The notes under the pieces are model-generated. The model did not search any database. It was not told the DNA's origin and saw only the letters and a program-made list of their open reading frames with translations. Below are positions 7,433 through 61,437 of a stretch of DNA of 64,000 bases, one piece after another. A program made the translations under genes and the position numbers. The stretch lies in contig RPFO01000165.1 in assembly GCA_009746045.1 (NCBI GenBank), forward strand, positions 7,004,034 through 7,068,033. Direction: 5' to 3'. The DNA comes from Mesostigma viride. Taxonomy: Eukaryota; Streptophyta; Mesostigmatophyceae; Mesostigmatales; Mesostigmataceae. Numbering within the stretch: position 1 is the first letter of the stretch; each line of letters begins with the position of its first letter.

Positions 7433-7720
7433 TTCTCGACATTTGCAGAAACAAATGTCGAATAGATTGTGCAAAAAAATATCGAAATCCTTATCATTAT
7501 TTAAATATACAGCATAAAATTATAATGCAGTAAAAAATAACTGTTAATTGAAGGCCGCAAAAAATTATCAACTACCCTTAAACTTGCCACAGAAAGATCT
7601 CGAAAAATATATACAATATATGCGGGCACCTTTTTACACCCTACTGAAGCCCCACTCTAAAGATATAAACGAGCCGAAACTAGGGCGTCGTCTACCCGCA
7701 GCGAGACCCCAATTTCTTGT
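7433..7720. other. AT-rich 3' flank of the DDE gene
   Basis: No gene is seen. The stretch is AT-rich, as expected for a 3' flank on the minus strand. A half palindrome of the intron family (CTACCCGCAGCGAGACCCC) lies at 7,692-7,710, just beyond the stop codon. Confidence 0.4.
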
Positions 7721-10700
7721 TTAAGTCGGTGCCGGCCCCTCCGGGGCTTCATCCTTGATCACCAGCGCAGTAAGCCACTTGTCGAGCTCCTTGCTCATCC
7801 TGATGTCGGCACACATTCCGTCGCTGCGCACGCGTGCTTCTAGCCGGAGAGCCGGAGCGACGCAGAGATAGCAATTCACAAGCTCGGGCTGGCGTGACGG
7901 TGGCCAATCCTCAACGTTGAGCGTGAAATGCAGGGGGTCATGCTTATCCCGCTTCCAAATCCGAACGGGAAGAATGCCATTCCCGGCGAGGAACAGCTCC
8001 TTCTCCCGTCCGTTCCGGCCCTCGACCCACCTCTCGAAGTTCTCGTCTAACACGATCGGCCCGGCTTCGCTTACAACCTCAGCCAACCAGAACGGGTGGA
8101 TGGGATCGTGATCCGTGTCCTTGTCCGATGGAACTGCCACATAGTCGTGGAGTCTCATCTGCCGGCCCATCGCCTCCCGCTTGTCCTTCAGCTGCTCCCC
8201 CCGCGTCACCATGCGAACCGGAGGGTTGGGCTGGCTCGGTGGCAGCAAACGGACAGTTTTCATCGAGCTTCCTGCATCATTGAACTCGATGATAAACGAC
8301 CACTCGCTTAGACATCCCTCAAACCGCCCAGCCAAACAGGGCGGACAGTAGCAGGAATAGCGCCTAATCATCAAAAGGCCAGGGTCGGACTTGTCCAGTC
8401 GCCACCAATGCGCCTGCTTGATGCCAGGCACCTCCTCCACCTCCGCGCGTCGGCCGGACTCGACGTCCTGTCATCAAATAGTTAGGACAAAAAGAATACC
8501 GTTCAAGTTAGCAAAATTGACCAAAAATCAATAAAACAGGGTATAGCTGCAGAGAGACCCCTTACAAAAAAAAAATAACGACAAGACATACAGTCATCAA
8601 AATTCGACACAGGGTATAGCTGCAGAGAGACCCCATTCGAATCATAATAACAACGTACGACAAGATATCAAGTGATCGAAATTCGACACAGGGTATAGCT
8701 GCAGAGAGACCCCTTCATACCGATAGAACAAGCGAAATTTCATACCTAAAAGAAAAGCAACCCATTGACAGTATATAGGGTCTCTCTGCAGAGATACCTT
8801 TATTGGGTTTGAATTTTTGTAGAACATCGGCAGTTGACGTCTTAAAACCTGAAATAACACAAAATTCCGTACCGGGGGTAAAAGGAAGAAGTGGCGAGTG
8901 ACGTTCTCGGCCCGCGCGCGGGCCGACTCCCTGCTCGATGTCTTGCCGCCCTGCCAGTTCTGGTTCAAGTAGGCGACTAGCTGGTGGGTCTCAAGTATGT
9001 GCTGGTTTTCGGGAATCCTCTGCATTTCCCTCAAGACGCACTTGCACTTCGCTCCTTGACCATCCACCTCCCCCTTCCCATGCTGCTCCCCCATGTAGTG
9101 GAACTCAAAGGCCTGCAGGTCGGGATCCCCCATGAGCAGACCGTTAATCTGGTTAATCACGTACCTGGACTTAAACTGCACCGCGCAGTTGTCCGAGCAC
9201 ATGTACAGGTTTCGCACCTCTACCCCTACTTCTACCCGCAGGGTTTCCAGAATCTTGCGAAGAGCGTATACGAGTGCGCGCTCGCCCCGCTTGATACTGG
9301 AATCCCCCAGGAAAAAGAAGACGCGCTTTTCCAGCTCGCCGTTGAGCCGATAACGCACGATCATGGGCATCAGGATGTGGCTGCGCTTGTGGAAGTACTG
9401 CGACTGCAGTTGGACGTAGTTGCTGTTCTCGTAGTTCTCGGCCCAGTCGCCGTGCACGAGCACGTCCCCCTCTCTCAGATTCTTCTCCCGATCCTTGATT
9501 GTATCCGCCTGCGACCAGGCCGTAAAGCAGTGCACGGTGAACTTGTCCCACCTCTTAAGAATCTCGTCCCGCAGCTCAGCTGGGGTGGACCTCATTGGGA
9601 CTTGCTCGGGCCGCTTCACCTTCTTCGCCGCCCTGCCATCGGTCTCGCCCTGTTTCGCAAAGGTCCGCAAAAAGTTTCGATTTGCAATAAAATCGCATTT
9701 CGATCAGATAACTGCAACTCACAAAGGGTCTCGCTGCAGCTATAGGTCACAAAAACAAAAAGTCAACAACATTTTAACGGAGAAATGAAATCGAAATCTA
9801 CTCACCCTCACCCCTCGGGTCACAGTCTGCTCCACCATCTCGAACTTGAACCAATTCAGAATCTCCGTGGAATTCTTGTCCCGATCACACTGCACCCAGT
9901 TATTATGGATGCCGCATGATTCCTCAGGACAGAACCCCTCCACACACGCCATCTTCAGTATGCGGTGAACCCTCTCCGTCCTCGGCACCCCATCTTCGTC
10001 CTCCACCAGCCTCTCAGAAATGTCGAGGTCTTCCAGGTCCCGTCCCCGCCATTCATCTTCCCCCTCCCCCTCTTCCATCCCCCCGCCCATTCCGCCCCCT
10101 TCACGCAGCCCGTTATCCCTGCCGTCAGTCTCGGCGGACACCGGGCAGTGAAAGTGCTTGATCCAGTCCGTCGAGTGAATGGCTTTCCACATTCCGCAAG
10201 TACCGTCCGGCAGTCTGTACTTGGAGCATCCCGCACACTCCGCGCCACACTTGCAGTTCTTGCCGTGGTTCGCATTGCAGTGCTTGGTCCACGCCCCCAT
10301 GGCCGACTGCATGGTGACGTGCTTCTCACACGCGCACAGGTTCCTCTCCTTCCACTTGCCCTTGATGCAATCGGGCGCGTATTTGCAGAAGGTCGTGTAG
10401 CCCACGTGAATGCCCACGTCCTTATCATACTGGTCACTCCTTTTGTTCCAGTACGCGTGCTTTTCGAGAAAGTGATTGTACATGTCCTCCTTGGAGGTCA
10501 TGTAATAGCGCGCTCCCTCAACGGCGACGAGCACCCCGCGATTGCCATGACCCTCCCTGCTGTAAGTGCGCTTGACATCCTTCATCTGGGAGGAGGCGCG
10601 CGACTCATCATCGTGCATCCACGCGTCCACTATCGCGTCAATCACGAATTGCGGCAAAGGGCGCCCCTGGCGAGCCTGCGCGTGTCTGAGGTAGTCCAGC

Positions 10701-11729
10701 TTCTGCTGCCTTCGAATCGCGCGAATTCCGCGAATCTTCTTGGCGTCCGTCCCCGTCAGCTTCTCCAACTCCGCGGCCGAAAACTCCTTCTCCAAGTCGT
10801 CACCACAGTAAAGCGTGGACATCAGCACCATTCTGACGTCTCTGTCTGGGTCGCTTTTGGTCAGACCATCAAAAAAGCCGTTAATCCGAGCCACCCAGAA
10901 CCTGTTCAGTTCTGCCATCCGATCCTGATTGTAAAGTTTTTTCGCCTCCTCATGATACAGCCCGTGACCTAGTTCAGCGGCCCTAGAGTTAAAGCCAGCA
11001 ATCATCTGCTCGAATGCCGGCCCCCGCCCCTCGGGTTTTGTCATCGCCTGAGCCGCTTCAAACGCCTTGTCAGCGAAAAATTCCCCAATAACCCTCTTGG
11101 CTTTCTTGTATTCTCCCGGCCGCTTGACTTCCTTGGCTTCAGGCTGCGCTGGATTCTGGTTCTCATCTCCGAAAACCCTTTTTGCGCCAGTTGGCTGCTT
11201 CGTCCCGGTGTTTAACTTAATTGCACTGAATCCTGGACGACCGGACGCAAGGGCGAAAACTCCCACCCGTTCGCGTGCTGCATGCCATGACGACCGGCAT
11301 AACGAAATCCATGAAAATCGAGTATCGTTGGGAAAAGCGACAATTACAGACAAAGTTCGAAAGTGTATCATTTTTACCACGATTGGGGTCTAGCTGCAGC
11401 TAGACCCTTAGAGGGGCTTTTTCCGTTAGACGAAAAGATTACCGGATGCGGTGAACTTAGCATACCCCAACCAAGATTGGGGTCTCGCTGCAGCTAGACC
11501 CTTCATTGCGGCGTGCGATTGATAAATCACAGACATCTGATTCATTAATTTTATAGTAACCATAAAGAGGGTCTAGCTGCAGCGAGACCCTTGAATTTAA
11601 GCTATTGCTTGTGGTTAGAAATGGTCTAGCTGCAGAGAGACCCCAATAAGGACGAAAAGATTTCAGGTTTTCCTCACCTTCGCGGCTCATTCTCTTATTA
11701 GTTCTCCCAGGACACTCAGATACCTGCAT
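7721..11729 (-). CDS. DDE transposase-like protein, four exons, apparently intact
   Basis: Exons on the minus strand: 11,729-11,678, 11,232-9,806, 9,649-8,798 and 8,467-7,721. The borders are GT-AG, the phases agree (1, 0, 0), and the 3,078 nt give about 1,025 residues without a stop. Exon 2 is Lys/Glu-rich and then carries Cys/His clusters (CACEKHV, NCKCGAECAGC). Exon 3 holds the presumed catalytic core: HGDWAENYE (Asp near residue 561), SDNCAVQFKS (Asp near 646) and HGKGEVDGQGA (Glu/Asp near 687-689). The same order (D-W/F-A-E-N-Y, S-D-x-x-x-x-Q-x-K, H-G-K-G-x-x-D-G) is known from a widespread family of DDE-type, transposon-derived proteins in animals and protists. Exon 4 includes PFWLAEVVSE and could be a BAH- or Tudor-like fold. 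Every intron contains the CTGCAG-centred palindrome. The ATG at 11,729 is the first in frame; a second lies at the MSREG codons. Transposition function is inferred. Confidence 0.7.
8539..8798. repeat. Four palindromes in intron 3 of the DDE gene
   Basis: Palindromes of the GGGT(A/C)T.G-CTGCAG-..AGACCC type lie at 8,539-8,561, 8,613-8,635, 8,691-8,713 and 8,778-8,798. The first three sit in roughly 75-bp tandem units sharing ATTCGACACAGGG. The last one overlaps the splice donor: read on the minus strand, the intron starts GTATCTCTGCAG. Confidence 0.8.
9726..9746. repeat. Palindrome in intron 2 of the DDE gene
   Basis: Reads GGGTCTCG, CTGCAG, CTATAGGTC. The left arm is intact and the right arm partly degraded. 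It lies within the 156-nt intron 9,805-9,650. Confidence 0.75.
11386..11644. repeat. Four palindromes in intron 1 of the DDE gene
   Basis: Sites at 11,386-11,407 (arms GGGTCTAG and CTAGACCC, perfect), 11,480-11,501, 11,569-11,590 and 11,623-11,644, all centred on CTGCAG. They occupy the 445-nt intron behind the first exon. Weaker relatives occur upstream near 12,003-12,030 and 12,420-12,441. Confidence 0.8.
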
Positions 11730-12070
11730 GGCGGGAATAACAAAAATAACACAGTAGCATTGATAAAATGGTTATCAGAAAATATATATACTAATATATT
11801 TTGCAAAAGATTTTATAATATATTGTGAATAGCATGGATTAATTTCCACATACTTTAATAATATGGTATGTTAAATTATATAGAACCATTATTTAGGAAA
11901 TCATTTACAAGAAAAAGTGGTATACATTATTATTATTTTATAGTTCGGCAATCTATAATAGTAAGACATACCGGATGGCAGGTTTATCAGCGGCCTCCAG
12001 GGCTATAGCGTCTCGCTGCAGCGTGACCGTTTGGTGCTATGACTGATTTCAGTAGATGTGCAGAAAAAAA
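11730..12070. other. AT-rich upstream region of the DDE gene
   Basis: No gene is seen. Very AT-rich at 11,760-11,970, then a palindrome relative (GTCTCG, CTGCAG, CGTGACC) at about 12,009-12,030. It would contain the promoter of the DDE gene, but no convincing TATA box position could be chosen. Confidence 0.4.
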
Positions 12071-12077
12071 TTTATTA

Positions 12078-12155
12078 CCATGACCACACCAGGAATCGAA
12101 CCCAGAACCTCATTGTACATTTCTGCATGGTAACGATGTCAACCAAACATCCGAA
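12078..12155 (-). other. tRNA-like sequence (degenerate tRNA or SINE head)
   Basis: On the minus strand there is a B box GGTTCGATTCC (plus-strand 12,092-12,102) with a T-stem-like surround, and an A-box-like TGGTTGACATCG about 40 bases earlier. The acceptor stem does not pair, so this is not a working tRNA gene. A tRNA pseudogene or the head of a SINE is more likely. Confidence 0.35.
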
Positions 12156-12465
12156 TGTTCCGGGGTAAATTGGCTGGAGGTCGTCTCTTTTTATACCTGC
12201 GGCCACAAGCACGGGTGACGGCATATTGGATGTCGTCCAATCCGCTAGCTTGGTGTCCAAAAAATGGGATCGAGCCTTTGCACCAGCGCCGCGCTTCCAG
12301 TTTTCAGTTCCGTGGGGAGGAACGAGGATGCCACGTTTCCAATTTTTTCAATACCGTTCAGCCCTGTGACGCCGCGTCCGGTTTGCGAATTGCGACCGTC
12401 CCATCGCCCATCGAAAAAGAAGCGCAGTTGCAGAGAGACCCCATAGCTGAAAGAGGGTAAGCTGC

Positions 12466-12535
12466 CACCTGCATGACGATACCTGCATAACGATACCTGC
12501 ATAACAATACCTGCATAACGATACCCCTGCGTAAC
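12466..12535. repeat. 14-bp tandem repeat
   Basis: About four to five copies of GATACCTGCATAAC with small changes (12,478-12,534). A single related unit (CCTGCATAACGATAG) lies at about 13,083-13,097. Confidence 0.7.
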
Positions 12536-12561
12536 GAAAGGAAATCGGTCTTCCGCATAAA

Positions 12562-13194
12562 GAAAAAAGGTGAGCTTTTTCCGCATCGTGGATGGTAGGC
12601 TGACAAAATTTGTTCTATCAAAAACGGCAACAAAACAGCGCATCCAAGCCGACGACACAGTTAGCCAGCTGGGCGACGACTATGTCTTTGTTGCCATCGC
12701 AAGAAACTCTTTATGTTGCAGCAAGAGTGATAAATCTGTCTGGCTTCCTTCTTGTCGTTGCTAGCTAAACCCTGCAGACATCTCGGTAGAGTCAGCTAAG
12801 CCGATCCTAATCCACATCTGGCATCCATCCCTTTAGTCTAGTTGCCATGGAGCGTTTCTTGGTCTCGCACATGTCGATCATGGTGGTGCTAGGCTTTCAC
12901 TTGGGTCACCCTTTCCATGTTTGCTATGCCTTTGGTCTGGTTAGGTTATAGGAGTAGATGTGCACATACTGCATTTGCTGCGTTTCTAATCGGTGCTCCT
13001 GTTTGATGCTTTTTTTCCCCTTCATATCGTTTCGACGTTTGCATGCTACCTGCCGGATTATAACATCGGACGTTGCTACCTGCCTGCATAACGATAGTTT
13101 GCAAGAAATCTTCATTTTGCCGAAACACAAAAAAAGGTGATCTTTTGCCGCAACGTGGATGGTAGGCTGACTAAAATTGTTCTATCAAAACGGC
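12562..13194. repeat. Direct repeat pair flanking 500 bp without a gene
   Basis: A block of about 66 bases at 12,562-12,628, containing CGTGGATGGTAGGCTGAC and TTGTTCTATCAAAA, recurs at 13,129-13,194 with a few changes. Both are preceded by a CCTGCATAACGATA motif. The 500 bp between them shows no gene. The pair could be the ends of a small element or a segmental duplication. Confidence 0.55.
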
Positions 13195-13200
13195 GTTTAT

Positions 13201-14441
13201 ATGTGGGGGGTTGCTGGCCTGAATAACTAAATGTGGGGGGGTGCTGTCATGAATGAATACATGTGGGGGGGTGCTGCTACGTATCAATACATGTGGGGGG
13301 GTGCTGCTACGTATCAATACATGTGGGGGTGTGCTGCTACGTATCAATACATGTGGAGGGGTGCTGCTACGTATCAATACATGTGGGGGGGTGCTGCTAC
13401 GTATCAATACATGTGGGGGGGTGCTGCTACGTATCAATACACGTGGGGGGGTGCTGCTACGTATCAATACATGTGGGGGGGTGCTGCTACGTATCAATAC
13501 ATGTGGGGGGGTGCTGCTACGTATCAATACATGTGGGGGGGTGCTGCTACGTATCAATACATGTGGGGGGGTGCTGCTACGTATCAATACACGTGGGGGG
13601 GTGCTGCTACGTATCAATACATGTGGGGGGGTGCTGCTACGTATCAATACACGTGGGGGGGTGCTGCTACGTATCAATACATGTGGGGGGGTGCTGCTAC
13701 GTATCAATACATGTGGGGGGGTGCTGCTATGTATAAATGCATGTGGGGGGGTGCTGCTACGTATCAATACATGTGGGGGGGTGCTGCTACGTATCAATAC
13801 ATGTGGGGGGGTGCTGCTACGTATCAATACATGTGGGGGGGTGCTGCTACGTATCAATACATGTGGGGGGGTGCTGCTACGTATCAATACATGTGGGGGG
13901 GTGCTGCTACGTATCAATACATGTGGGGGGTGCTGCTACGTATCAATACACGTGGGGGGGTGCTGCTACGTATCAATACATGTGGGGGGGTGCTGCTACG
14001 TATCAATACATGTGGGGGGTGCTGCTACGTATCAATACACGTGGGGGGGTGCTGCTACGTATCAATACATGTGGGGGGGTGCTGCTACGTATCAATACAT
14101 GTGGGGGGTGCTGCTACGTATCAATACATGTGGGGGGGTGCTGCTACGTATCAATACACGTGGGGGGGTGCTGCTACGTATCAATACATGCATGTGGGGG
14201 GGTGCTGCTACGTATCAATACATGTTGGGGGGGTGCTGCTACGTATCAATACACGTGGGGGGGTGCTGCTACGTATCAATACATGTGGGGGGGTGCTGCT
14301 ACGTATCAATACATGTGGGGGGGGATGCTACGTATCAATACATGTGGGGGGGTGCTGCTACGTATCAATACATGTGGGGGGGTGCTGCTACGTATCAATA
14401 CATGTGGGGGGGTGCTGCTACGTATCAATACATGTGGGGGG
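13201..14441. repeat. 30-bp G-rich minisatellite, homogeneous block
   Basis: About 40 head-to-tail copies of a 30-bp unit that starts ATGTGGGGGGGTGCTGCTAC and ends GTATCAATAC. Most copies are identical; some have ACGTGG for ATGTGG or one G fewer. Because 30 is divisible by three, the block is open in several frames on both strands. The long frames (for example the one at 13,231-15,057 running into the LINE copy) are therefore by-products, not proteins. The G runs could form G-quadruplexes. Confidence 0.9.
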
Positions 14442-15196
14442 TAGCTGTGGGCAGCCGCTGGATCCCACGGGGCCTCACTACCTTTCCTGCATGGGGGGCC
14501 AACAGAATCAGAATTGGTATTTGTATTTGCACACTGTCCTCCTGACGGTGGTGCTCGCCATGATTCGGTCGGTTTTCCCCCACGCGAACATCCGGTCCGA
14601 GGATGCGGATGGCGCTGCCTTCTATTCCCCCAACCACCGGCCTGACATCGTGGTGCTGGACTTTGAGGGGGGTGGCCGGCATCTGCTTATCGACGTTTCG
14701 GTGGCGCGGCCCTTGGCTCTTAGCCACGTGGCTGGGGCCTCCCTCACGGCAGGTTACACGGCGGACCGGGCGGAGCGGGCCAAGCTCCTGGCCTACGGCG
14801 ACGTCGGGCACCATCGTGTGGTGCCCTTTGTCCTGGAGGAGTTTGGGGCCATGGGGCCCCTGACCTCCGCCTTCTTCAAGGAGTGTTGCCGGCTCCGGGA
14901 GGACCGGCTGGACCTGGAGGGCCAGCGGGCCTCATGGTCGGCGCGGACCTGGACGTCATATTGGCGTCAGCGCTTGTCGGTGGCGCTGACTCGGGCCATG
15001 GCTGACATCATGCTCCGCCGTACGCGGGCTGATTTTGCGGTGCAGCAGGGCTATTAGGTTCCTCCCGTTAGGAGTTTCCATTGGTCTTATCGTAGTATAG
15101 AGATTTGACATGGCTCTGTATATAGGTTTATAGCTGGGCGTTTGCTTTGGTTTGAGTGATTTCACTCTGCTGTAAGTAATTATATTATTATAATGT
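14442..15196 (+). pseudogene. LINE 3' end with zinc motif and endonuclease domain (copy 2), inserted in the minisatellite
   Basis: Interrupts the 30-bp array. It is longer at its 5' end than copy 1 and adds CGQPLDPTGPHYLSC, the C…H…C knuckle that precedes the restriction-like endonuclease in R2/NeSL-type LINEs. It then continues with RPDIVVLD and IDVSV to the TAG near 15,055-15,057. The 3' UTR ends in AATTATATTATTATA at about 15,196, where the array resumes. Only about six substitutions separate it from copy 1 in some 600 bases, so both insertions are recent. Confidence 0.65.
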
Positions 15197-16211
15197 ATAA
15201 ATGCATGTGGGGGGGTGCTGCTACGTATCAATACATGTGGGGGGGTGCTGCTACGGATCAATACATGTGGGTGGGGGGATGCTACTATGTATAAATGCAT
15301 GTGGGGGGGTGCTGCTACGTATCAATACATGTGGGGGGGTGCTGCTACGTATCAATACATGTGGGGGGGTGCTGCTACTACGTATCAATACATGTGGGGG
15401 GGTGCTGCTACGTATCAATACATGTGGGGGGGTGCTGCTACGTATCAATACATGTGGGGGGGGATGCTATGTATAAATGCATGTGGGGGGTTGCTGGCAT
15501 GAATAAATACATGTGGGGGGTTGCTGGCATAAATAAATGAATGTGGGGGGTTGCTGCTACGTATAAATGCATGTTGGGGGGTGCTGGCATGAATAAATGA
15601 ATGTGGGGGTGTGATGGCATGAATAAATAAATGTGGGGGGATGATGGCATGAATAATTAAATGTGGGGGGTGCTGCTACGTATAAATAAATGTTGGGGGG
15701 TGCTGGCATGAATAATCAAATGTGGGGGGGTGATAGCATGAATAAGTAAATGTGGGGGGGTGCTGGCATGAATAAATGAATGTGGGGGGGTGCTGTCATG
15801 AATAATTAAATGTGGGGGGATGATGGCATGAATTATTAAATGTGGGGGTGCTGCTACGTATAAATAAATGTTGGGGGGTGCTGGCATGAATAATTAAATG
15901 TGGGGGGGTGATGGCATTAATAAATAAATGTGGGGGGGTGATGGCATGAATAATTAAATGTGGGGGGGTGATGGCATGAATAAGTAAATGTGGGGGGGTG
16001 CTGGCATGAATAAATGAATGTGGGGGGGTGCTGTCATGAATAATTAAATGTGGGGGGATGATGGCATGAATTATTAAATGTGGGGGGTGCTGCTACGTAT
16101 AAATAAATGTTGGGGGGTGCTGGCATGAATAATTAAATGTGGGGGGATGATGGCATGAATAAATGAATGTGGGGGGGTGATGGCATGAATAATTAAAAGT
16201 GGGGGGGTGCT
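15197..16211. repeat. Continuation of the minisatellite with diverged units
   Basis: The first units (to about 15,480) match the 13.2-14.4 kb type. Later units change to ATGTGGGGGG, then TGCTGGCATG or TGATGGCATG, then AATAA(A/T)TAA, still about 30 bp. A higher-order period is visible: 15,660-15,895 and 15,896-16,130 repeat the same succession of variants. The block ends at the copia insertion and picks up again at 23,122. Confidence 0.85.
16207..16211 (+). repeat. Target-site duplication (left), GTGCT
   Basis: GTGCT directly precedes the left LTR and is repeated directly after the right LTR (23,122-23,126). The five bases are part of the minisatellite core GGGTGCTGG. Confidence 0.9.
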
Positions 16212-16812
16212 TGTTATATTGTGGGCTCGCAGTCACATAAAGTATTGGAATTTGGTTATGCTCGGAATTGGCTAAGTCCGGAGGTCAGCCGGCAGCGCCG
16301 CGCTGAGGTTTATTTGCTGGGCCGGCGGTCAGTGGGAATTTATGTGTACGGTCAGGCAACGGGTCGTAGGTTCTGGCTGTGGGCTATTTTGGGTTCTGGC
16401 CATTACCGTTCGTTCCGTGGGCAACCTTGGTTCCGTACCGTTTGTCCAGGCAAGCAGTGGGGAGGATCTCGGTTGCGGTGCGTTATGTTGTGGAGTGTCG
16501 TTTGGGAATTATGTTGGTGTATTTCGGTTGGTTTGTACTTGGGTACGTTCTCAGGCCCACGCCGTTGCTCAGCGTTGGGTGAAGCCACAGAGCTACTCGC
16601 AGTGATGACCTACAGCGGAGCATTGAGTCAAAGCTGTTTGGCGGCGTGAAAGGCCGACACGCAGGAGAAAGCTTTGAATCACGTTGCAGCAAATGCTGTC
16701 AATGGCCGACGTTGTCGACATGTCCGGGGCTGGGCGCTGAGCGAGTAATCTATTTTGTTACGTCTTTTTATTATTCGGAAATACAATACACTTAAAGAAT
16801 TTTATTTTAACA
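16212..16812 (+). repeat. Left LTR of the copia-type element
   Basis: A 601-bp LTR starting TGTTATATTGTGGGC and ending TTTATTTTAACA, thus with TG…CA termini. It differs from the right LTR (602 bp) by only one substitution (CGCAGTCAC against CGCACTCAC) and one single-base length change near 16,770, as far as can be read by eye. The insertion is therefore young. Open frames inside it (for example at 16,221-16,649) recur identically in the right LTR and are not genes. Confidence 0.95.
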
Positions 16813-16849
16813 TGTACTAGGTTGGGGCCGTAATTTTACAGCATAAAAC

Positions 16850-17659
16850 ATGGCAGCGTCAGCTGGGAGAAAACGGAAAGCAATTCATAGTGATCCGTCG
16901 ACATGGGCCGCTGACCTACGAGCTGAAAAGGATCTGTTAGAACTATTTCGAAAGCGTGTAGGAACCCTTGCTAGCGACGCACCCACGCTCGTAGTGCGTG
17001 ACTATATAGAGAGAATAGAGGCTTTTCTGAAGGACCATGGTGAGAAGATCAGCAGTGTTTATTCGCTTTTCCGAGATGCCGGTTTGCTGAGCTGCGACAA
17101 TTTCATTCTCGCATTTACTCTTCGAGCATGCAAGGATGAGAAGGTAAAACGGCGTCACATCCCAGGTAAGCTGCGTGAGGCGTTGTTGGAGTCGAAGGAG
17201 GGCACGACCTCTAGGCTATGCAGCATTTACACCTGGGTGCCACAACGGCCTTACTCACTCGATTTACTCAGCCTTCGCAATTTGCGGAATGAGTCTGTGC
17301 TCAATGGACTAGAGGTGTCTGAGACAGCGGTGATAGACCGTTACGTGAGGATGGCCAAGGACCTGAATTTCCAGACTGTGATGGGAGCCCTGCGTGCAGG
17401 CCAAGCCAAGGATGACCTTACCAAGGCAATAGAGATCATTACCGGCCTGGTAGAAGGGGAGGAGAGGGACATGATTGCACAGCTGAGAGCCCAGGGCAAG
17501 CTGACCGAGTCTGGGTTGATGGCCCCTGCCCCTCCCCCAGCCGCTCCCAATTCTGTGCCCCTCCCTGCACCCTCTGTGCCAAGCACTGTTACCCTGCCAA
17601 GCCACAGGATGCAACGGGCAAGGTTGCCGGTGTCAACAACAGCAAGCCTGCTGGAGTAG
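16850..17659 (+). CDS. Gag (capsid part) of the copia element
   Basis: An ATG at 16,850 opens a 269-codon frame. The first 230 residues are a mostly helical, charged capsid-like protein (for example LELFRKRVGTLASDAPTL and AKDLNFQTVMGALRAGQ), then a Pro/Ala linker. This frame ends at a TAG at 17,657-17,659. The basic RG-rich and zinc-knuckle continuation is in the -1 frame. Both frames are open from 17,416 to 17,656, so the switch must fall there, most simply near 17,597-17,601 where KPQDATGKVAG begins. I saw no classical slippery heptamer, so a plain deletion in this copy is as likely as programmed frameshifting. Confidence 0.8.
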   Translation: MAASAGRKRKAIHSDPSTWAADLRAEKDLLELFRKRVGTLASDAPTLVVRDYIERIEAFLKDHGEKISSVYSLFRDAGLLSCDNFILAFTLRACKDEKVKRRHIPGKLREALLESKEGTTSRLCSIYTWVPQRPYSLDLLSLRNLRNESVLNGLEVSETAVIDRYVRMAKDLNFQTVMGALRAGQAKDDLTKAIEIITGLVEGEERDMIAQLRAQGKLTESGLMAPAPPPAAPNSVPLPAPSVPSTVTLPSHRMQRARLPVSTTASLLE

Positions 17660-18078: not shown

Positions 18079-18114
18079 CTAGGGTCCGGTGGTGAGGGTG
18101 AGGCAGCTGGTGAT

Positions 18115-22500: not shown

Positions 22501-22515
22501 GAAAGAAAAAAGGGG
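22501..22515 (+). other. Polypurine tract
   Basis: GAAAGAAAAAAGGGG lies four bases before the right LTR and fits the primer for plus-strand synthesis. Confidence 0.8.
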
Positions 22516-22519
22516 CTGG

Positions 22520-23121: not shown

Positions 23122-23195
23122 GTGCTGGCATGAATAAATGAATGTGGGGGTGTGCTGGCATGAATAATTAAATGTGGGGGGGTGCTGGCATGAAA
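23122..23195. repeat. Remaining minisatellite on the right of the copia insertion
   Basis: About two and a half units of the GTGCTGGCATG AATAA… ATGTGGGGG type resume here, showing that the copia element split a single array. Confidence 0.85.
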
Positions 23196-50490: not shown

Positions 50491-51323
50491 TTAAAGCGCA
50501 ATGTGTAGGGATAGATAGATTCCAATGCGCGCGGATAGATTCATCATGAGAATGGTTGGAATGGAGCTTGGTTAAAAATATAGGCTTACAGCACTCGTGC
50601 ACGTGAGTGCTTAGACACGAGTTTGCCAAGTCAAGGCAACACACGTGAGGCGGGCTCGCAAGAGATCTAACCAGTTGGCACTGGCCTGTTCTTTATATAC
50701 TTGTGCACTGTGCTTTGCTAGGCCTGAGCAGCCTCGTAGGCCTGCTCAGTATTAACACCCCCAGTACAGTATTAACAACCTGCATGTACAGCGTCCAGAT
50801 CCTATACAGTAGGTCTGCCATACAGGCACAGTGACCACAGAGTACAGTCCACAGTGACTATTGCGTCTGCACCCAATAGTCCAGGACTAAGCCTGCGGTA
50901 CCAACAGACCACAGGTTAAGGTTCCTATTTCCTGCGTACGACGTATTAATCCAATACCGTCGTAGGTTCAGCACCTAATTCCTGTCAGCCCAGGAATTAC
51001 TGTCGACCCCATATGCCGTCGGCACATATTCACGGCCGGGCCCACTTCGAATGTTCCGCGGTCCAAGCCAAGTGTGTGACACTTTTCCTTCAATTTTGAG
51101 GCAAAAATCTTGAATTTTGGCTTGCGAACGTATAAATTTCACGTAAATATTACAATTTGTGGGTATTTATCTCATTGTAAGTCTCGTGTGACATAAAAAC
51201 TTTACATTAGCGTGAAATTGCATTGTTTCATTGAAGAATATCATGGATACATTCGTCGCACTTGAGACGGAGTCGACTGAATTTACTAAAGACTCGTCCA
51301 ACATAAAATAAAGTCTTCGAACG
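50491..51323. other. Spacer, possible solo LTR
   Basis: No gene. A TATA-like CTTTATATACTTGTGCAC lies at about 50,691-50,708 and is followed by short repeats (CAGTATTAACA at 50,746 and 50,767). It could be a solitary LTR, but I could not define its ends. Confidence 0.3.
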
Positions 51324-52159
51324 TCACTTCTTATTCTTGCTCCTTGCTTCTGCTTCCAATTTCTGCTCTTCTGTTTTGGACTTCTTCCTCTTTGGATCGA
51401 TGGACATCGCAGGTGCCCACTTTGCCACATCATTCCAACTCTTTCCGTCCATCAGAGTCACCACCTTCTTCACATAGTCCAAAGGCATCCAGAACTTGCC
51501 CCGATGCAACTTTCCGCCCTCTGTCTCTTCTGGAAAAAACTTCATGCAAACGTCCCTCCATTTCCGATCGTATCCACCTACCTGCCCGTACAACTTCACC
51601 TCCTGTAACTTGGTATACTTTTGCTTTTCCCTACTCGCATTGGCCCTTCTCATGGTGTTCTCGGCCCACCCATCAATCCAGAAGCACTCCGGTGCTCCGT
51701 GTTTCTGTTCCCCGTCCATAAGTCTCATCCACAGCGTAGGCTTCTCATAAGGCTCTTGGCTCTGCGCATTCGCTTCCACCCCTTCAGACTGAGCAGCAAG
51801 TTTAGCTGCAGGACCGAAGCCCACCGCAGCGTTCGCCCGCACCACATCATTACCTGCGCGTAACCAATCGGCACATCAACGACGGACTAAAGTCAACGTA
51901 GATAGATTGCAAACGAATTAAAAAAAAAATTCAGGATACATGCCACGACCAAAACAGCGATTTCCTCACCCTTTCTTATTCCTTTCGGAGCTCGAGTAGC
52001 AGCTGTCTTGGGTCGAGACGAGCCGGAAGACTTGGAGGGCGCGGCAGGCTTCTTCCTTCCCTCAGACGTCGCTCTGCGAGTTGACCCTCCTGCCCCTCCA
52101 CCCCTTGCCCTTCCATCACCCCTTCGCCTCCCTCCATCTTCCTCCTCCTCGTCGTCATC

Positions 52160-52345
52160 CCCGTCCTCCTCCTCCTCCCCCTCCTCCTCCTCCTCCTCCT
52201 CCTCCTCCTCCTCCTCCTCCTCCGCCTCCTCCTCCTCCTCCTCCTCCTCCTCCTCCCCTCCTCCCCCTCCTCCCCCCCTCCCCCTCGTCCCCCTCTCCCC
52301 TCCTCCCCCTCCTCCCCCTCCTCCTCCTCCTCCTCGGAGGAGGAG
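52160..52345. repeat. (CCT)n/(GGA)n microsatellite in the last large exon of copy B
   Basis: About 60 triplets, almost pure. Read in one frame it gives poly-Glu, in another poly-Arg. Frame on its two sides differs, so length slippage here has probably broken the gene. Confidence 0.9.
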
Positions 52346-52555
52346 GATGATGATGACTCGACTGGCTGCCTTCGAAGCTCTTTCTTGGGATACTTTGAAA
52401 CGCGCGTAGGCGCGGAAGGAGCGACAGGCCGGGCAGAAGCGCCAGGCTCAGCTTCATCTTCGTCGTCCGAGATTTGAACAACTGCCTTTCGAAGCTTTTT
52501 GGAAGGGTGTGACTCCGGCTGCGGCTGGACAGACGGCCGCTGCCCACCCTTCCCT

Positions 52556-52695
52556 TTGTCCCGCGTCTTCTGCGGTGACGACTTCTCTCCCCCCTTAGAC
52601 GTCTTCTGCGGTGACGACTTCTCTCCCCCCTTAGACGTCTTCTGCGGTGACGACTTCTCTCCCCCCGTAGACGTCGCTCTGCGAGTCGACCCTCC
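52556..52695. repeat. 36-39-bp coding repeat in copy B with exonic palindrome
   Basis: Three units encode GGEKSSPQKTSK. Next to them, 52,671-52,694 is a palindrome relative (on the minus strand GGGTCGACTCGCAGAGCGACG), and a second almost identical one is at 52,065-52,088. Both are translated GSTRRATS. Confidence 0.7.
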
Positions 52696-54382
52696 TTCCT
52701 TTCCCTGTCCCTCGCCTCCCTCGTCCCCATCCGAATCTCCTTCCGCGTCATCCTCAGCCTTCCTCTTCTTCGCCAATGACGTCCACGAGACGTCAGGCAT
52801 CTTCCCCATCCGAACCAGTAAGTCTTCGAAGCCATCCAATGACTTCTTTCCGCCAAAAACGACCACGATGGGACGCAACTCCTCGAAAAACTGCGTCGCT
52901 AGCTCGATAAGCTTCCTGTGGTAACCGGAAGCTCGTTCGACAGTTGTCTTTTTTGGAGGAACCATAAAGAGGTCATGGTCACCCCACCAGAAGTCCTTGA
53001 AGGACGTCCACTTGCGGCCGAACTCACCATCCAAATTCAGGATTCTACAGCACGGTAGTGGCGTCAGGCCATCGTCTTGCCTCGCGAAAGTGGATGGGAA
53101 GCCCTCACCGTCGCCCACCGCCACCTCCGCCGCCACCCTCCTCACAAATGCCTTCTTCCTGTCAGGGCCGCCTTTAGGGAGACTATGAGAAGAATACCAG
53201 ACGGTCATCTTATCCCAGGAAATGCTGCGCCAGTTATACTCAATCGGCTCAGCACTTTTCTCTTCCACCTTCTCCCCCCCTTTCCCTGCAACTTTCTCCT
53301 TCGCCTCAACAACCGCCTCCTTCTTCCCTTCCCCTCCTTCCATCTTTTTTTGATAGTGGAGATACAAGTCCTTGTCCAGAAGGCCGTGCGAACCCTTCAT
53401 GCTGAAGTTCGGAGCGGTTTTGTCGAGGAGATCCACTAGATCGATTTTGCTATCCATCAGATCCTTTCTCGGAATCCTTAGGTGATTGGCAAGACCTTCG
53501 GACTTTAAGAGGTAGGCGACATTGCGCGTGATGATGACGGCCTTCTCCCAAAATGCAAGGAATCGATCGACGACGTCCTTGTTCCTTGGCATCCGCCCAA
53601 GTAGTCGAAGCCGAACACCTCTTCAAATAAGCGAGAAGCCTTGTACTCCATATCAGCCCCCCCCTTACATTCGCCATCCAAGTCGGGCTTTTCCTGAAAC
53701 TTAATAAGGATGAATTGGCGAACGCACTCAAGTACGTCCTTGGCCAACTCCACCAACTTTGACAGCTTTTCGGGCCCAACCTCCCCACTCATGATGCATT
53801 CACACACAGCGTCCATCATCGGAAACGACGCCAGGTTCCTTACAGACGTCCAGGACACCTTTTGCCCCTTCTTGGTGCCCTCGGCGTTAGCGAACCGGCA
53901 TCTGAGAGTCATAGTCTCCTCAGAAGCTGGTGTGACGTCATTCTCATCATCCGGCCTGGCCTTTGTGAGGCGCAGGAAGGTGTTCGCCAGAACTCGATTG
54001 TAATTTGAAATTTGGGAAGGTTGGGCCTTGTTTTTTTTCCGCTCGCCTTCTTCCTCCCTCAACTCCCCCTTATCCTCCTTACTCCCCTCCAAACTCCCTT
54101 CCCTCCCGACTGATTGTTTGGTGGCCGGCAGGATGTACGCCAGCAGGTTCGTGTAATGGCCATCGGGAATAAAATGCCCTTTGCCCTGCTTCACGACGCC
54201 GTGCAAGTACAGCCTGTTGTAATTCCAAACATCCAGAAGCGCCTGCCCAAGCGTCCGATCCGCTACCGCCTGATCTTCGGCATTGGCGCCCTTGGAGATT
54301 TCGAATAGGCGATCCAGCTTCTTCTTCCCAACCTCCTGTCACGAACAGAGGAACGAAAAATTGACACACAAGAACAATTCAA

Positions 54383-54640
54383 GGGTCGACTTGCAGCGTG
54401 ACGTTATGAACGCACGGGAGCGCGAAAAATGGTCTTCAGCGCCGAAATCGGTAAGTTAGGGTCACTCTGCGAAACCACCCCAGAAATATGTCGGGATGAG
54501 AGTTTGACTGCCATTGTCGTTTCTGTGTGCGACTTCCCGCATTTATAATGCATGATAAAGGAAGACTTTTGACATGGTCACTCCACAGTGCGACCCTTAC
54601 TCGACATAACACGACGAAGTGGTGGAACTGCAGCGTCACC
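54383..54640. repeat. Three to four palindromes in the exon 7-8 intron of copy B
   Basis: 54,383-54,403, 54,459-54,481, 54,575-54,597 and a weak one at 54,619-54,640. Arms are of the GGGTCAC/GTGACC type. Confidence 0.7.
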
Positions 54641-55947
54641 ATTGCCATAGATAGAACTACCACTTACAGATATTTCCGGGAACTTTTTACACTCGTCCCA
54701 ATTTGGAAGAAGGTCGGCCCCCCGAAGCAGAATGACGTTCGTTCCCCCGTACCCAGTATGGAATTGTTCCATAAGGGATGAGAAAAGTTTAGCCGCCGCG
54801 GCACTGTCCTTCGCGTTCTCAGACGCTGCCCCCCCTTCACACATTAGTTTCTTAACATGTGTCACACCGGGCGTCCATTCCCCCTCCAATTGCTTGAAAG
54901 ACTTTAAACCCTTGAAATAGTGGTTTCCGTCGACCACCGCATATCGAAGAACGAGATATTCGCCATCAGGATGTTCTTCGTGAAATCTTGGGTCGAATGC
55001 CTTTAAGGAGGCCTGGCTTATTAGGCTGAAGACCTCCCTTGGTTGAAAATCAAAGGGCAGAACGTCGTCTTGTTCCCCGACTCGTGCATAGGTCCGGAAC
55101 TCAACACCTCTCTTGAGGAAAGAAGCGGTGGACTTGGTTCCAAGATACTTCTCAATCTCCTTGTCGGACAAGGGGCGAAAGTAACGCGAGCCCACGAACT
55201 CCGCGTCAGTCCTAGCGCCATGGCATTTTTTCAGCCAATCCCGGTAAGGGCCGGTGGACGTGATGTGTTTGGCGAAGAGGCTTGGCTTGGTTTCCGCAAG
55301 CGCTTGAAAGGCGAACTGCCACACAGGGATGCACACCTTAAAATGCAAACTGTTTGTCTTTGCATTCAGCAAGATGCGCCCGTTCTCCCTGAACACCTCA
55401 TCGCTTAGCAACCGCTGCCTCATGTTGTCAGGCAAAATCAGCCCGTTGACGGTGTGAATGCGCATGCTATTGCAACCGGTATCGATGAAGTCACTCGGTC
55501 GAATCCAACGGGATTCCCGCACAGCATTCGCGTCCCGAATGGCTTTGTCCCTGATCTCCTTCTCGGAGTCCACGGTCGTTGCCATCTTCCAATCTTTGAT
55601 GATCGGCTCCTTGTCCACCTTTCCACTACTCGTCAGGATCCCCTCCTTGAAGAGCTTTGAAAGTGCTTTCAGAAGCTCAAGAAAAGGGGAGAAGGTAGGC
55701 CACTTTAATATATCCGACGCCGGCGCCTTGCCCCTGGCTTCGACGTAGTTAAGCATCTCCTTGACGAGTGCAAAAACGGCATCATTGCCGGCCAACCTTC
55801 CGTCACCGTCTCCTTCCCCCTCGGCACCCTGAACGAAGGCATTGACGAACATGAGACAAGAAAGCAATAAATAGTTTAACGTATGCATATAGTCCGCGAG
55901 CGTAGGAAAATCTCAGAGTAGGGTGCTAAGAACACAGAAGGTAAAAA

Positions 55948-56202
55948 GGGTCACTCCACGGAGCTACCCCTCTGAATCTAAATCACCAAAAACGCACCGC
56001 TTCCTTTTCTCCCGCCTTCTTCCCCTTCTTTCCTTTTCCGCCTTTCTCCCCCTCGCCACCCTGGAGGAAGGCATTGACGAAGATGAGACAGGAAAACAAT
56101 AAATAGTTTAACGTTTGCAAATAGTCGGCGTGCAGACAAAAAATACCGAATAGGGTGCAAAGCACGGAGAAGGTAAAAAGGTTCACTCCACAGAGCTACC
56201 CC
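55948..56202. repeat. Palindromes in two duplicated introns of copy B
   Basis: 55,948-55,970 and 56,180-56,202, each in a short intron (55,997-55,829 and 56,231-56,061). The two introns are near copies of each other (shared CGTTAAACTATTTATTG and AATGCCTTC), so one exon-intron unit was duplicated in tandem. Confidence 0.75.
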
Positions 56203-56816
56203 TCTAAATCTAAATTCCGCAAAAAACGCACCTCTTCCTTTTCTCCCGCCTTCTTCCCCTTCTTTCCCTTCCCGCCCTTCTCCCCCCGGCCGCGTCATCC
56301 TCCCCCTTATCCTTCCCCTTCTCCTTTTTATCCGCATCCCTCTTCTTTTTGGACGCTTTTGCCTGACCCTCAAGCAGCTTCGCCCGTTCACGATCCCTTC
56401 TCTTGAGATCCACTTCATGAACTTGATGACCTTGTCCACCTTCGCCTCCGTGTACGCCTTTGGTTTCCACTTGAACTTTTCGGTGCCCTTGGACTTGACT
56501 TGGTTGACAAAATCATAGGCCAGGTCACCGTTGAAGGTGTCAGATTGCATTGCGAAATCGGCCGCCGCCTCAACGCGTAGTTGGGTGAGATACTTGCGAA
56601 ACTCCCCGGCACCCATCGTAACATCCTTAGGGGGATTGCCTAGGATGAGTCGCCAATATCACAGATAGTCTGCACCTTCTTCTTCTGCAATAAGCTTTAG
56701 GTAAGCTGCTTGGAGTGTCGTCGTCGCCTTTTTTTAGCCTGCTGGAAGGTATACCAACAACACACAACATACACATGAAGCGAAATGTATTAAGAAGAGT
56801 AATCTGAACTCTGGCA

Positions 56817-59064
56817 TCCTAGCTCTGCAGCGCGACCTTCAGCGTTAAAAACTTAAAAAACATTGTACAAACCTTTGCCTTCCCCTTCCCCTTCGGAGTT
56901 GGCTCGGGCTCATTTTCTTCCTCCTCCTCCTCCTCCTCGTGCTCCTCCTCCTCTTCCTCCTCGTCCACCTCCTGCTCCTTCTCCTCCTCTTCCTTCTCGT
57001 CCACCTCCTGCATGAAAAAAAAATAATAATAATTCAGACGATGACATAAAAAAAACGAGCATTAATTTTGTTTTAACGTTGCTCTGCGGAGCGACCCCAA
57101 CCCTAAGCTTGAACAGTAAAATGAAACAAATTTCCTACCTCTACGTTCTCCGTCCCCATCCCTTCGACCTCTTCGAAAGGTTGATCGTCATCCTGCAAGA
57201 CGAAACGTGCGTTCAGATAAATATACAAAGTCAGTCAAAACAGGAACTATTTCTTGAATATCCTATCTTCACAAATCGACCCCGAACCTTTAGCGGCATT
57301 TGCTTACCTCCGGTTCCACGCTGAAGGACTTTGTCCCTCAAAACATGGAATGTCACCCTCCTGGCGGGAAGGAGAGCAAGAAATGCGTTCATCGTTAGTA
57401 ACAATTTTCAACAAAAGAAATACACAACACTAATCTAAACGGACTGAATAAAAATGTACACAAATGTCAATAATTACCTCAATGTCAAATCTCCACTCCC
57501 GCAACACTTGTCCGATCGGCCACATCTCAGATGGAGTTGTGTGGCTCAGTTCGTTTTCGAAAAACGTCCGAAGAAAAAACAAGTGAGATAGCATGTCCTG
57601 ACTCCATGATTTCTCGTTTATGTTCGCCGTCACTAACGACAGGCAGTCGTCGATCCCCTTGTACTCAAGCCATGCGACAACCTCCTTTCGTGGGGGCTCA
57701 TACTGTCCGGCCATGTCGAACTCCCCACTCTGACGAAAACGCAGGATCTCATCCTCGCACAACTGAAGAAACAATTCAACAGCTCGACTCGGAAGAATAG
57801 GGTCTGGGTTCACCCTAAACTGCGCCATCCACACTGAATACGACGAAAGGAAGTGCGATCTAACCCCATCCAAATCTTCAATCACTTCCGAACCAGCCCT
57901 GAACAACTCGGGAGATACCGAGTGGTCCATGGCGATCAGAAAGTCGCCGAAGACATCCCAGTCGAACTGTGCAGCCTTGAACCCTTTCTTCAAGAGCAGA
58001 TTGACATCCGTTTCCGTCAGCGGGGAGGTGTCCCAATCCTCACCTGTCTTCCCCTGCTCTAGGACCTGGTACATTTCCCACCTGCAGACAGATATGATGA
58101 TGTCAAAATACTCGTGTGACAATGGGTGCTGTCTCGTGTCCTTGCAGTACTGTTTGGTCGCACAAGACAGCTTGATCCAGACGAGCAGGCTTCGAGGAAC
58201 ATAAGCTGTAACATCCGCTGCGTCGGGTATCGTTGACCCGCACTCGGTAACAAGCAACTCAAAGGTGTCGAAAAGAGATGCAATTTCTTTCCCCTTTAAC
58301 CTTTTGCCTCGAAGGCTCCGCCCCATGACTTCGAACAAAAGATCACGAAGTGTTGGATCACTCCAAGGGTTCATTCTCATCAGACCCGACTGAATCCTCT
58401 CATGCCAGACACCGTCATCGATCGCAACTTCGATCTCCTTCGACACAAAGGTGCTCAAGAACGACTTGGCGTCATCGTTCAGATGTTTTTCGTAAGTCGT
58501 CAACCATGACTTCCAAGTTTCCAAGCCCCTCAACTGGATCGGCTGCACACAGGTCCACAAAACGAAAAAAAAGCATAATCGGAAAAAAAGTTTAGGGTCA
58601 CTCTGCGAAGTGACCCTTCATAAAAAAATCTCAAACAGAACGAACGACTAACTGACATGCACTATGAAGCGGCGAAAAAATTATTAGCTCACCCGCAATT
58701 TCTCCTCCCCACTCCCAACCTCGGCGTTCCCCTGAGACTCTGTCTCATCTCCCCCTTTCTTCCTCTGGATGCAGCAAGACAGAGGAAAGCATACTCGTTG
58801 AAAAAGTTTAGGGTCACTCTGCGAAATGACCCTCCATAAATTAATCACACATGCGAAGGAAACGGCAACTCAGAAATGATGGACAAATGAACAAAGAACA
58901 AAGGCGAAAAACACAGGATTACTTATCGCTCACCTCCGTTGTTGTCCCGCTCTTCTTGGGATCCTCTGACTTCTTTTCGTCTGCCCCCCGCTTCCTCTGA
59001 AATCAAAACAACAGGGAAAAGCATACTTGTTGGTTCAGGTTAGGGTCACTCTGCGAAATGACCC
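56817..59064. repeat. Palindromes in five further introns of copy B
   Basis: 56,817-56,838, 57,079-57,098, 58,595-58,617, 58,811-58,832 and 59,043-59,064, one per intron. The site at 58,595 is a perfect stem (GGGTCACT and AGTGACCC around CTGCGA). The introns at 57,477-57,193 and 51,969-51,854 have none. Confidence 0.78.
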
Positions 59065-60697
59065 ATTCATGGTCAGACGAGCTTAGCAGAGATAAGGAAT
59101 AACGAAACCGTTAAAAAAAACACGCACACTAATGGGGGTAAAAACTGTTTCTCACCTGAGACGGCTCCGTACCCTCCTTCTCCGAGACCCCCGCGGTCTT
59201 CCCATCCACCTCCGTCGACTTTTCTGCAGCCTGCGCCTTCCTGCGCTCCTCCTCAAGTTTGGCTTGGTATTTCAGGCGTGCCGCCACACCCGCCTCCATC
59301 ATCCTCTTCCCCTCCTCCTGCACCTTCCTCTTCGCCTTTGCCTCCTCGTCCTTCTTTTTCCTTTCCTCATTCGCCTTTCTCTCCTTTTCGTCCCGCTCCC
59401 ACGACGCCCTCCTCTTCCTGCGCTCCGCCTCCTCCATCTCCGCAGCTTCCATTTCTGCCTGCTTCGCCTCTCGCTCTGCCCTTTCCTTCTTCACCCATTC
59501 CCTCTGCTCCCTTTCCAGGAGCTCCTGGGCGGCCTTCCGTTCCTTGTCCTTTTTCTCCAGATTCACCAGATCTTCGGCGTGCTGCGTTGCCTGATCCAGA
59601 TAAGAAGTCAGAAGTGCCATGCGGTCATTCCTTCTCTTTCTTTCCTCCTCCGGAAGATCCTCCAGTGGCCTTGGGTCTGCCTTGTCCCTGTCCTCCATGC
59701 TGATCAGGAGGTCAATGTTCTTCTGCAGATCACGCAGGAACCGCTCATGGTCATCCTCCTTCTCCTCCCATTCCGCTCTTGCTTTCTTTCTTGCCTGTGG
59801 GGAGCGGCTCCTCGGAGGTGAGTTTGACGACCGGCGCTTGGGTGGCGACCGGCGCTTGGGCGGAGACTTCCGACCTGGAGACTTTGCAGGCGACTTGGGC
59901 GGTGATCGGGACTTGGAGGTCGCCCCCTTCTTTGGAGGGGAGCTTTGGGGAGACGCGGGCTGCGAGCTGGGCTGTGAGGTCGACGCCTCGGGTAGGGACC
60001 TTGAAGGAGACCTGGGCGACGTGCTGACCTTCGAGGTCGAAGCCTCGTGGTGGGACCTTAGAGGTGACTTGGGCGGCGGGCTGCCCTGCTCAGACGCCTC
60101 GTGGTGGGCCCTTGGAGAAGACTTGGGCGGCGAGCTGGGCTTCGAGGTAACCACCTCGACGGGGGCGGACCTCGGCGAGTTTGAGGTCGACTTCCCGCGG
60201 ACGGGGGACTCCTTGTTGATGGCGGGCCGCTGGGGAGACTGTGGAGACACAACGGAGCTGGACCCAGCCCCGGCAGCCTGTGCCTCAGGTGCGGGCCGCT
60301 GAGGAGACTGTGGAGACACAACGGAGCTGGACCCAGCCCCGGCAGCCTGTGCCTCAGGTGCGGGCCGCTTGGGAGATTTGGAGGCCGACGCCTCCACGGA
60401 GCTTGGCCCAGCCCCGGCAGCAAGCATTGTTGACAGAGGAGGAAACTCCTCTACGCCCTTGGGCGGAGAGGCGGGTGGCGTACTATACTTAGGAGACTCG
60501 CTCGTCGACTTGACCTTGTCGACATAGGTGGCCCTCTCCACCTCTTTTCCCTTCTGAAGCAAGGAGGCCCTCTCCTGCTCCTCCTTTTCCTTCTGAAGCT
60601 GAACTTCCCTCTCCTTCTCTTGTTCCTTCTGCGGCAAATAAGGAAAAACAAATAGACCAATGTCGGATGAAGAAAGTGTAAATTCGCATCAGCGTGA

Positions 60698-61437
60698 GGG
60701 GTGGCGCTGCAGCGCTACCCTAAGAAGAAACAAGGATGAAATCCCATTCAGGTTTGGGGAAAAAAAAATCGAAGATGTAACTAATGTCAGGGAAGGGGTT
60801 ATTCTGTAGCGAGACCCTTCCGCAAAATAAGACATAAGAACCATGTTAAGGAACGACCCTACCAACAAAATATAGCATATAAATATTTCATGGAAGGGTG
60901 ACTCGGCAGCGCGACCTTACAACAAAAATGTGATTGAATAACGTATCTTGGAAAGGTGACTCTGCAGCGCTACCCTACAAACAAAATGTTATTGAATAAC
61001 GTATCTGGAAAGGGTGACTCTGCAACGCGACCCTACAACCAAAATGTGATTGAATAACGTATCTTTGAAAGGTGACTCTGCAGGCTACCCTACAAACAAA
61101 ATGTTATTGAATAACGTATCTGGAAAGGGTGACTCTGCATCGCGACCCTACAACCAAAATGTGATTGAATAACGTATCTTGGAAAGGTGACTCTGCAGCG
61201 CGACCCTACAAACAAAATGTTATTGAATAACGTATCTTGGAAAGGTGACTCTGCAGCGCGACCCTACAAACAAAATGTTATTGAATAACGCATCTTGGAA
61301 AGGTGACTCTGCAGCGCGACCCTACAAACACTGAATGGAAGTTTGCATTGTGAGGGGGTCACTCTGCAGCGCGACCTTACAAACAAAGACTGCGACATTG
61401 CGCAAGGGTAGGGGTCACTCTGCAGAGCGACCCTACC
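60698..61437. repeat. Palindrome array 5' of copy B
   Basis: Single sites at 60,698-60,720 (GGTGGCG, CTGCAG, CGCTACC) and 60,797-60,822, then about nine tandem units of roughly 60 bp from 60,890 to 61,437. Each unit carries GGTGACT, CTGCAG, CGCGACC and a spacer with ACAAAATGTTATTGAATAAC. It mirrors the upstream cluster of copy A in position, but the arm sequence is of the copy-B type. Confidence 0.85.

Follow-up and report, generated by a model that had tools for sequence, protein, structure and literature searches.

In a 64,000-nucleotide stretch of the Mesostigma viride genome (contig RPFO01000165.1, positions 7,004,034 to 7,068,033 of the forward strand; the window hereafter), we analyzed a short palindrome that recurs in the introns of three apparent genes: one for a predicted DDE-type transposase and two larger ones, copy A and copy B. 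A sequence-only reading had treated these loci as three host genes marked by an intron-borne, covarying palindrome. Our data show instead that they are parts of two related DNA transposons of about 20.5 kb, element A, which holds the DDE gene and copy A, and element B, which holds copy B. We consider it about an even chance that the palindromes are dispersed binding sites for a dimeric DNA-binding protein encoded by these elements, as their sequence organization suggests.

A full-length copy of element A spans 20,658 bp (C1:7872255-7892912), with GGGTGGTCCCACGC at one end, its complement at the other, and CTAA on either side; a second copy, in contig C2, is flanked by AGGG. The same terminal inverted repeats are present at both ends of 586-bp miniature copies, and the target-site duplication of A and of these miniatures, read by eye, is 4 bp. 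Exact terminal ends of A number 425 in the genome, against 6 for the control. A genome search with transposase exon 3 returned 731 candidates, of which 136 were scored, 124 at 89-100% identity and 12 at 66%, giving at least 124 transposase copies for A and at least 12 for B. Element B is a sister of A with its own ends; the two transposases are 52-66% identical by segment and 54-60% over two long alignments, and blastn of A against B matches mainly exon stretches. The hallmarks of a terminal inverted repeat (TIR) transposon are thus present, namely terminal inverted repeats, a fixed 4-bp duplication in A and its miniatures, an RNase H-like fold, and dispersed copies with nonautonomous derivatives. 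In the window, the elements lie as follows.

5347..39337, plus strand: element A, window copy, delimited by blastn against the copies in contigs C1 and C2; terminal repeat exact at 5347
5347..5477, plus strand: left end of A, 94% common to the 586-bp miniature element
51034..64000, minus strand: element B, window copy with the copy B gene; right end at 51034, running past the window

Each 22-base palindrome, with arms of 8 nt, consists of two facing copies of a half-site, GGGT-n4-CTG, around the center CTGCAG, so that the full layout is GGGT-n4-CTGCAG-n4-ACCC. The half-site is specific to each element, mostly GGGT[CA]T[CA][GT]CTG in A and mostly GGGTN[GA]C[GT]CTG in B. The exact form GGGTCNNNCTGCAGNNNGACCC occurs 1918 times in the genome searched (440 Mb, 2243 contigs), against 0 for its reversed control, and several of the listed exact sites repeat the order and spacing seen in the window. 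When arm position 5 was allowed to differ, 114 places matched, again with 0 in the control; among the matches listed of these variants, the forms resemble by eye those of B. When 22-mers were scored for GGGT and CTG on both halves (maximum score, 14), one full-length copy of A held 26 sites scoring at least 11 and one copy of B held 34, against means of 1.05 and 0.6 sites at score 11, and 0.05 each at score 12, in letter shuffles of the same copies. It is therefore confirmed that the palindromes exist and greatly exceed chance, about one score-11 site per 20 kb being found after shuffling. The more than 40 repeats counted earlier in the window are also present, but many are units of tandem arrays (55-58 bp at 60896-61412, 106-109 bp at 23306-23630, and 73-87 bp at 8539-8778) and so are not independent sites. 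Similarly, the restriction of the sites to the three loci holds in that all window sites scoring at least 12 lie inside A or B; one of them, at position 6980, stands directly beside the DDE gene and outside the loci, and five score-11 places (16577, 18300, 19344, 22885, and 49237) lie outside both elements. Three stretches of viral contigs carry the exact pattern, a number for which no control was run and whose chance level was estimated by us.

The genomic placement of the sites identifies them as a transposon motif rather than a host-intron motif. All 50 exact sites among the matches listed, out of 1918 and from contig C1 and part of C2, fell within transposon copies at 90% identity or more: 29 in A, 17 in the 586-bp element, and 4 in B. 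The 586-bp element has no gene, has the ends of A and 4-bp duplications, and carries two sites 226 bp apart. In the completely listed stretch, all seven copies with both exact ends bear A-type sites (14 of 14 sites by eye). Duplications were read by eye in seven of nine displayed miniature copies (TGAT, TGGA, CAGG, CCCC in an ambiguous run, CCCA, CTCT, and CACC; L005 and L008 were not clean). A 10.3-kb class with the ends of A, of which one copy was read, has 11 strong A-type sites arrayed in its first 4 kb, so that three size classes with these ends (20.7 kb, 10.3 kb, and 586 bp) bear A-type sites. The high copy number and intron bias would also suit a very small element, self-spreading or introner-like, with introns as its insertion sites. 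We regard this as extremely improbable, as the listed sites all belong to larger transposon copies, the palindromes sit well within introns and away from splice borders, and no free 22-bp insertion was seen in the copies examined; the motif is copied within whole transposons and as tandem units.

Within the transposon genes, 14 of the 20 modeled introns hold a site scoring at least 11 (DDE gene, 3 of 3; gene A, 4 of 7; gene B, 7 of 10). The 16 of 20 introns counted previously were a fair estimate, since intron B7 has a score-10 relic and intron A6 has, by eye, a decayed site in another copy of element A; four of the 20 modeled boundaries (A6, B2, B4, and B10) are off exact GT-AG by some bases. 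Introns are not the only location: the large genes have sites in their leaders, the DDE gene has one upstream of its start and one past its stop codon, and an open reading frame (ORF) of gene A contains one. In A and B alike, the transposase gene carries sites in introns 1 and 3 and shortly past its stop codon, the post-stop palindrome of B lying at a distance of 7 nt. Introns, leaders, and the stretch just past a stop codon are where a gene-dense 20-kb element has noncoding room, which accounts for sites being there. The sites of the window are the following.

7688..7709, minus strand: palindrome 11 nt past the DDE stop codon
8539..8799, minus strand: array in DDE intron 3 (8539, 8612, 8691, 8778)
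9726..9747, minus strand: half-decayed palindrome in DDE intron 2
11386..11643, minus strand: palindromes in DDE intron 1 (11386, 11480, 11569, 11622)
12008..12029, minus strand: palindrome upstream of the DDE start
23253..23718, plus strand: array in the leader of gene A (23253, 23306, 23412, 23521, 23630, 23697)
25089..25110, plus strand: palindrome in gene A intron 24989-25183
26445..26466, plus strand: palindrome in gene A intron 26404-26540
26902..26923, plus strand: palindrome in gene A intron 26857-26982
37321..37499, plus strand: three palindromes in gene A intron 37301-37556
39258..39279, plus strand: weaker site within an ORF of gene A, an exception
54383..54641, minus strand: palindromes in gene B intron about 54337-54667 (54383, 54459, 54575, 54620)
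55948..56201, minus strand: palindromes in two gene B introns (55948, 56180)
57076..57097, minus strand: palindrome in gene B intron 57008-57138
58595..59064, minus strand: palindromes in three successive gene B introns (58595, 58811, 59043)
60699..61433, minus strand: array in the leader of gene B, in 55-58-bp units from 60896

The arms of the palindrome had been thought to change in concert, which was taken to favor selection on, or copying of, the symmetry itself. Many copies, however, have two to four mismatches in the four inner arm positions, and inner pairing is that of re-partnered half-sites of the same element: 64.8% of cells pair in A, against 65.1% when the right halves are re-dealt within A (p=0.61), and 40.7% pair in B, against 43.7% when re-dealt within B (p=0.84). 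Pooling the unique sites of A and B (15 and 21) gave a pairing of 0.528 against 0.424 (p=0.003), whereas the same sites stratified by element gave 0.528 against 0.534 (p=0.63), and one site per cluster (8 and 10) gave p=0.29. The pooled value arises because the half-sites of the elements differ; at arm position 6, for example, T stands in 100% of left and 93% of right arms in A but in 0% and 10% in B. Arm covariation thus exists between the elements only, and in the aligned copies of either one the arm changes are not compensatory; pooling two element families yields an apparent covariation that is seen within neither.

These results bear directly on the proposal that the palindromes form hairpins in the pre-mRNA, controlling splicing or meeting through kissing CUGCAG loops. 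The intron and post-stop positions, the self-complementary center, and an outer GGGT/ACCC pairing that is mostly retained would all agree with such a role. We nevertheless judge it unlikely: when G-U is counted together with Watson-Crick pairs on the sense strand, the inner arms still pair as re-partnered halves do (p=0.79 for A and for B), hairpin energies of the real sites are no better than those of re-partnered halves (fractions 0.24 and 0.25), Watson-Crick inner pairs reach only 41% in B, and the motif is also found in a gene-less element. The unpaired inner positions of A include no G-U or A-C mismatch, and there are therefore no wobble intermediates. With pairing and energy no better than those of re-partnered halves, the two halves of a palindrome act independently, each as one copy of the half-site of its element.

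Sequence variation among copies of A provided a second line of evidence. The loci were found through the transposase protein rather than through the palindrome, and the alignment comprised 29 of 30 fetched loci, one being lost to a length filter, plus the window row, which repeats L037. Variable columns made up 15 of 132 in the sites, against 100 of 450 in the rest of introns 2 and 3 (p=0.006), although the intron background may be too high where tandem units were aligned; exons had 269 variable columns of 2923, from which the sites did not differ (p=0.44). This lower variation than in the surrounding intron speaks against the sites being functionless relics of local tandem duplication and homogenization, tolerated in noncoding parts. 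Many sites are indeed array units with conserved spacers, and element-specific arms are what homogenization would produce. Single sites nonetheless persist in separate introns of A and B, the post-stop site is common to both, and we hold a relic origin to be very unlikely.

Taken together, the independence of the halves, the lower variation, the element-specific half-site, and the gene-less carriers point to DNA sites for a dimeric protein that the element itself would encode, and among the three options named in the sequence-only reading the best fit is the dimeric protein site, ahead of the RNA hairpin and the tiny self-spreading element. Arms that are independent within an element, with both halves differing between A and B, are expected if a protein that differs between the elements reads each half separately. 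We propose that the palindromes may be dispersed cis sites of a large cut-and-paste TIR transposon family, that a dimer or paired dimer of either the transposase or the large second protein may bind them, and that this binding would mark, and probably regulate or assemble, the DNA of the element in transposition, transcription, or both. An alternative is that the sites are enhancers or operators of the genes of the element, read by a dimeric host factor and enriched in leaders and first introns. Both elements do have big clusters, one in the large-gene leader and one in transposase intron 1 (6 and 4 sites in A; 16 and 3 in B). However, two sites are kept in the gene-less 586-bp element, late introns and the post-stop position also carry sites, and a single host factor would not predict differing half-sites in A and B; we consider this alternative rather unlikely.

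Several observations weigh against a binding protein encoded by the elements. The sites are not gathered near the ends of A, the first being at 970 and the last at 18870 of 20658 bp; no site scoring at least 11 lies in the first 969 bp, and the last is 1.8 kb from the right end. The subterminal concentration of repeats that characterizes TnpA sites of En/Spm is accordingly not seen in A. A role in RNA, too, would be compatible with the concentration of sites within introns and directly past a stop codon. In the seven copies of the 586-bp element, the sites are invariant, but by columns the difference is not significant (0 of 44 against 31 of 514; p=0.16); counted by cells it is 0 of 308 against 50 of 3597 (p=0.03). 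This comparison was limited to the seven copies with both exact ends, as a nine-copy set picked by exact palindrome is biased. Finally, no Pfam family scored above its cut-off in the 10 protein segments tested, so that no binding protein was pointed out, and the fold model of gene A was unusable (predicted local distance difference test [pLDDT] score, 36).

The genes of A, as they lie in the window copy, are listed here.

6461..7075, minus strand: third ORF of A, 204 amino acids; B has a counterpart to 6460-6787, 70% identical
7721..11690, minus strand: DDE-type transposase gene of A; exons 11690-11678, 11277-9806, 9649-8873, and 8467-7721
23797..39337, plus strand: large second gene of A (copy A), with borders set by eye

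The transposase gene of A, with four exons and three GT-AG introns, encodes 1002 amino acids without an internal stop. Conserved acidic residues are visible in the alignment, and the protein is predicted to be of the DDE type. The model of its exon 3 has an RNase H-like fold but a low overall quality (pLDDT, 58); Argonaute PIWI domains dominate its VIA list, from which only the designation RNase H-like was drawn. Exon 3 had two homologs, P0001 and P0002, the latter with the source name Prorocentrum lima. The exons of gene A include 23797-24988, 25184-26233, 26341-26403, 26541-26603, 26728-26856, and 26983-27013, resuming from 35430, with 36142-37300 and a stretch from 37557 on. Below the Pfam cut-offs, one B segment scored 17.1 bits for RecQ_Zn_bind (cut-off, 25) and one A segment 12 for Nrap_D6 (cut-off, 22.3). 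Matches to PDB sequence profiles were all weak (best E values, 0.28 and 0.23), and a copy A segment had no homolog at an E value of 0.001. A motif of gene A had suggested a likeness to ParB-like, palindrome-binding proteins, but this candidate was dropped in view of the unusable model and the lack of a Pfam match above cut-off. Rfam at gathering thresholds gave no match, and a tRNA search found none. The window also lacks the spliced-leader motif of dinoflagellates.

The window copy of A is split by inserts at about 5731-6356, 14448-23121, and 27014-35429; its similarity to other copies ends at 39337, and its right end was not found. A probable long terminal repeat retroelement is nested in A at 16212-22819, with identical 300-bp repeats (16212-16511 and 22520-22819) and a long ORF that is Copia-like by eye. 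Another insert contains an inverted repeat whose 297-nt arms match perfectly and stand 21 nt apart (31113-31727). Partly identical stretches (5731-6030 and 14567-14866, 100%) occur at insert borders, within 5731-6356 and 14440-15199. Minus-strand ORFs at 2766-5252, reverse transcriptase-like by eye, adjoin the left end of A. Minisatellites of 30 bp stand between the divergent genes of A and B alike (13198-14447 and 61453-64000), and the 10.3-kb element has one of a similar kind after its palindrome array (copy L064, from about 2831). In gene B, exon-intron units at 55815-56286 and 58570-59064 are tandemly similar (84-86% and 68%), each with its own palindrome, and the reading frame changes at 53610-53622, where ORFs 53505-54338 and 51976-53622 overlap; the window copy has either a break in frame or a small intron there.

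There are precedents for large transposons whose repeats are presumably read by a protein of the element; the spread of the sites away from the ends and their palindromic, two-half form are what differ here. We found no paper describing such palindromes in a literature search, and we make no strong claim that they are absent from print. PstI palindromes of Neurospora mitochondrial DNA are short, GC-rich sequences with CTGCAG in introns and spacers, a likeness to our sites, but they are organellar and of another sequence. The 4-bp duplication and the general look of the DDE motifs would suit Sola elements, a possible affinity. Sola is a DNA transposon superfamily with subgroups (PMC4455052).

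The closest parallel is with CACTA/En-Spm elements, represented by soybean Tgmt* (PMC2613891), which is 20.5 kb long and has subterminal repeats with a presumed TnpA-like reader. Shared with our elements are the large TIR form, introns, a transposase, short repeats that differ between subfamilies, and a presumed second DNA-binding function. The CACTA repeats, however, are subterminal, whereas ours are palindromic and spread over introns, leaders, and the 3' untranslated region (UTR), with none in the outer kilobase of A; the ends here read GGGTGG... rather than CACTA, and the duplication is 4 bp rather than 3. The Drosophila P element (PMC7776569) likewise has internally deleted short copies and internal sites, but it is 2.9 kb long, with sites near its ends and 8-bp duplications, in contrast to 26 and 34 sites over about 20 kb and 4-bp duplications. 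Amoebophrya introner elements (PMC7789003) resemble our case as inverted repeats tied to introns in a protist. There, the inverted repeats are at intron ends and direct repeats at splice borders; here, unit ends do not coincide with intron borders, and the palindromes lie inside GT-AG introns of transposon genes and in gene-less elements.

The finding shifts the subject from host splicing to transposon biology, where intron-borne palindromes can belong to the cis code of a transposon. We tentatively suggest, as a speculative possibility, that the family may have converted its introns and UTRs into a ladder, 20 kb wide, of paired half-sites that a protein of its own would read and, jointly and with the same reservation, that the half-site drifts along with this protein between the sisters A and B. 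If so, the coevolution of protein and DNA could be followed across the elements as a natural series within a single genome, and the ladder may have a purpose other than end recognition, such as compaction, escape from silencing, or a coupling of splicing with mobility. The authors of the soybean CACTA study (PMC2613891) ask how fast element repeats and the presumed reader exons coevolve; with different half-sites and transposase segments that are 52-66% identical in one genome, A and B make this question of repeat and reader coevolution testable.

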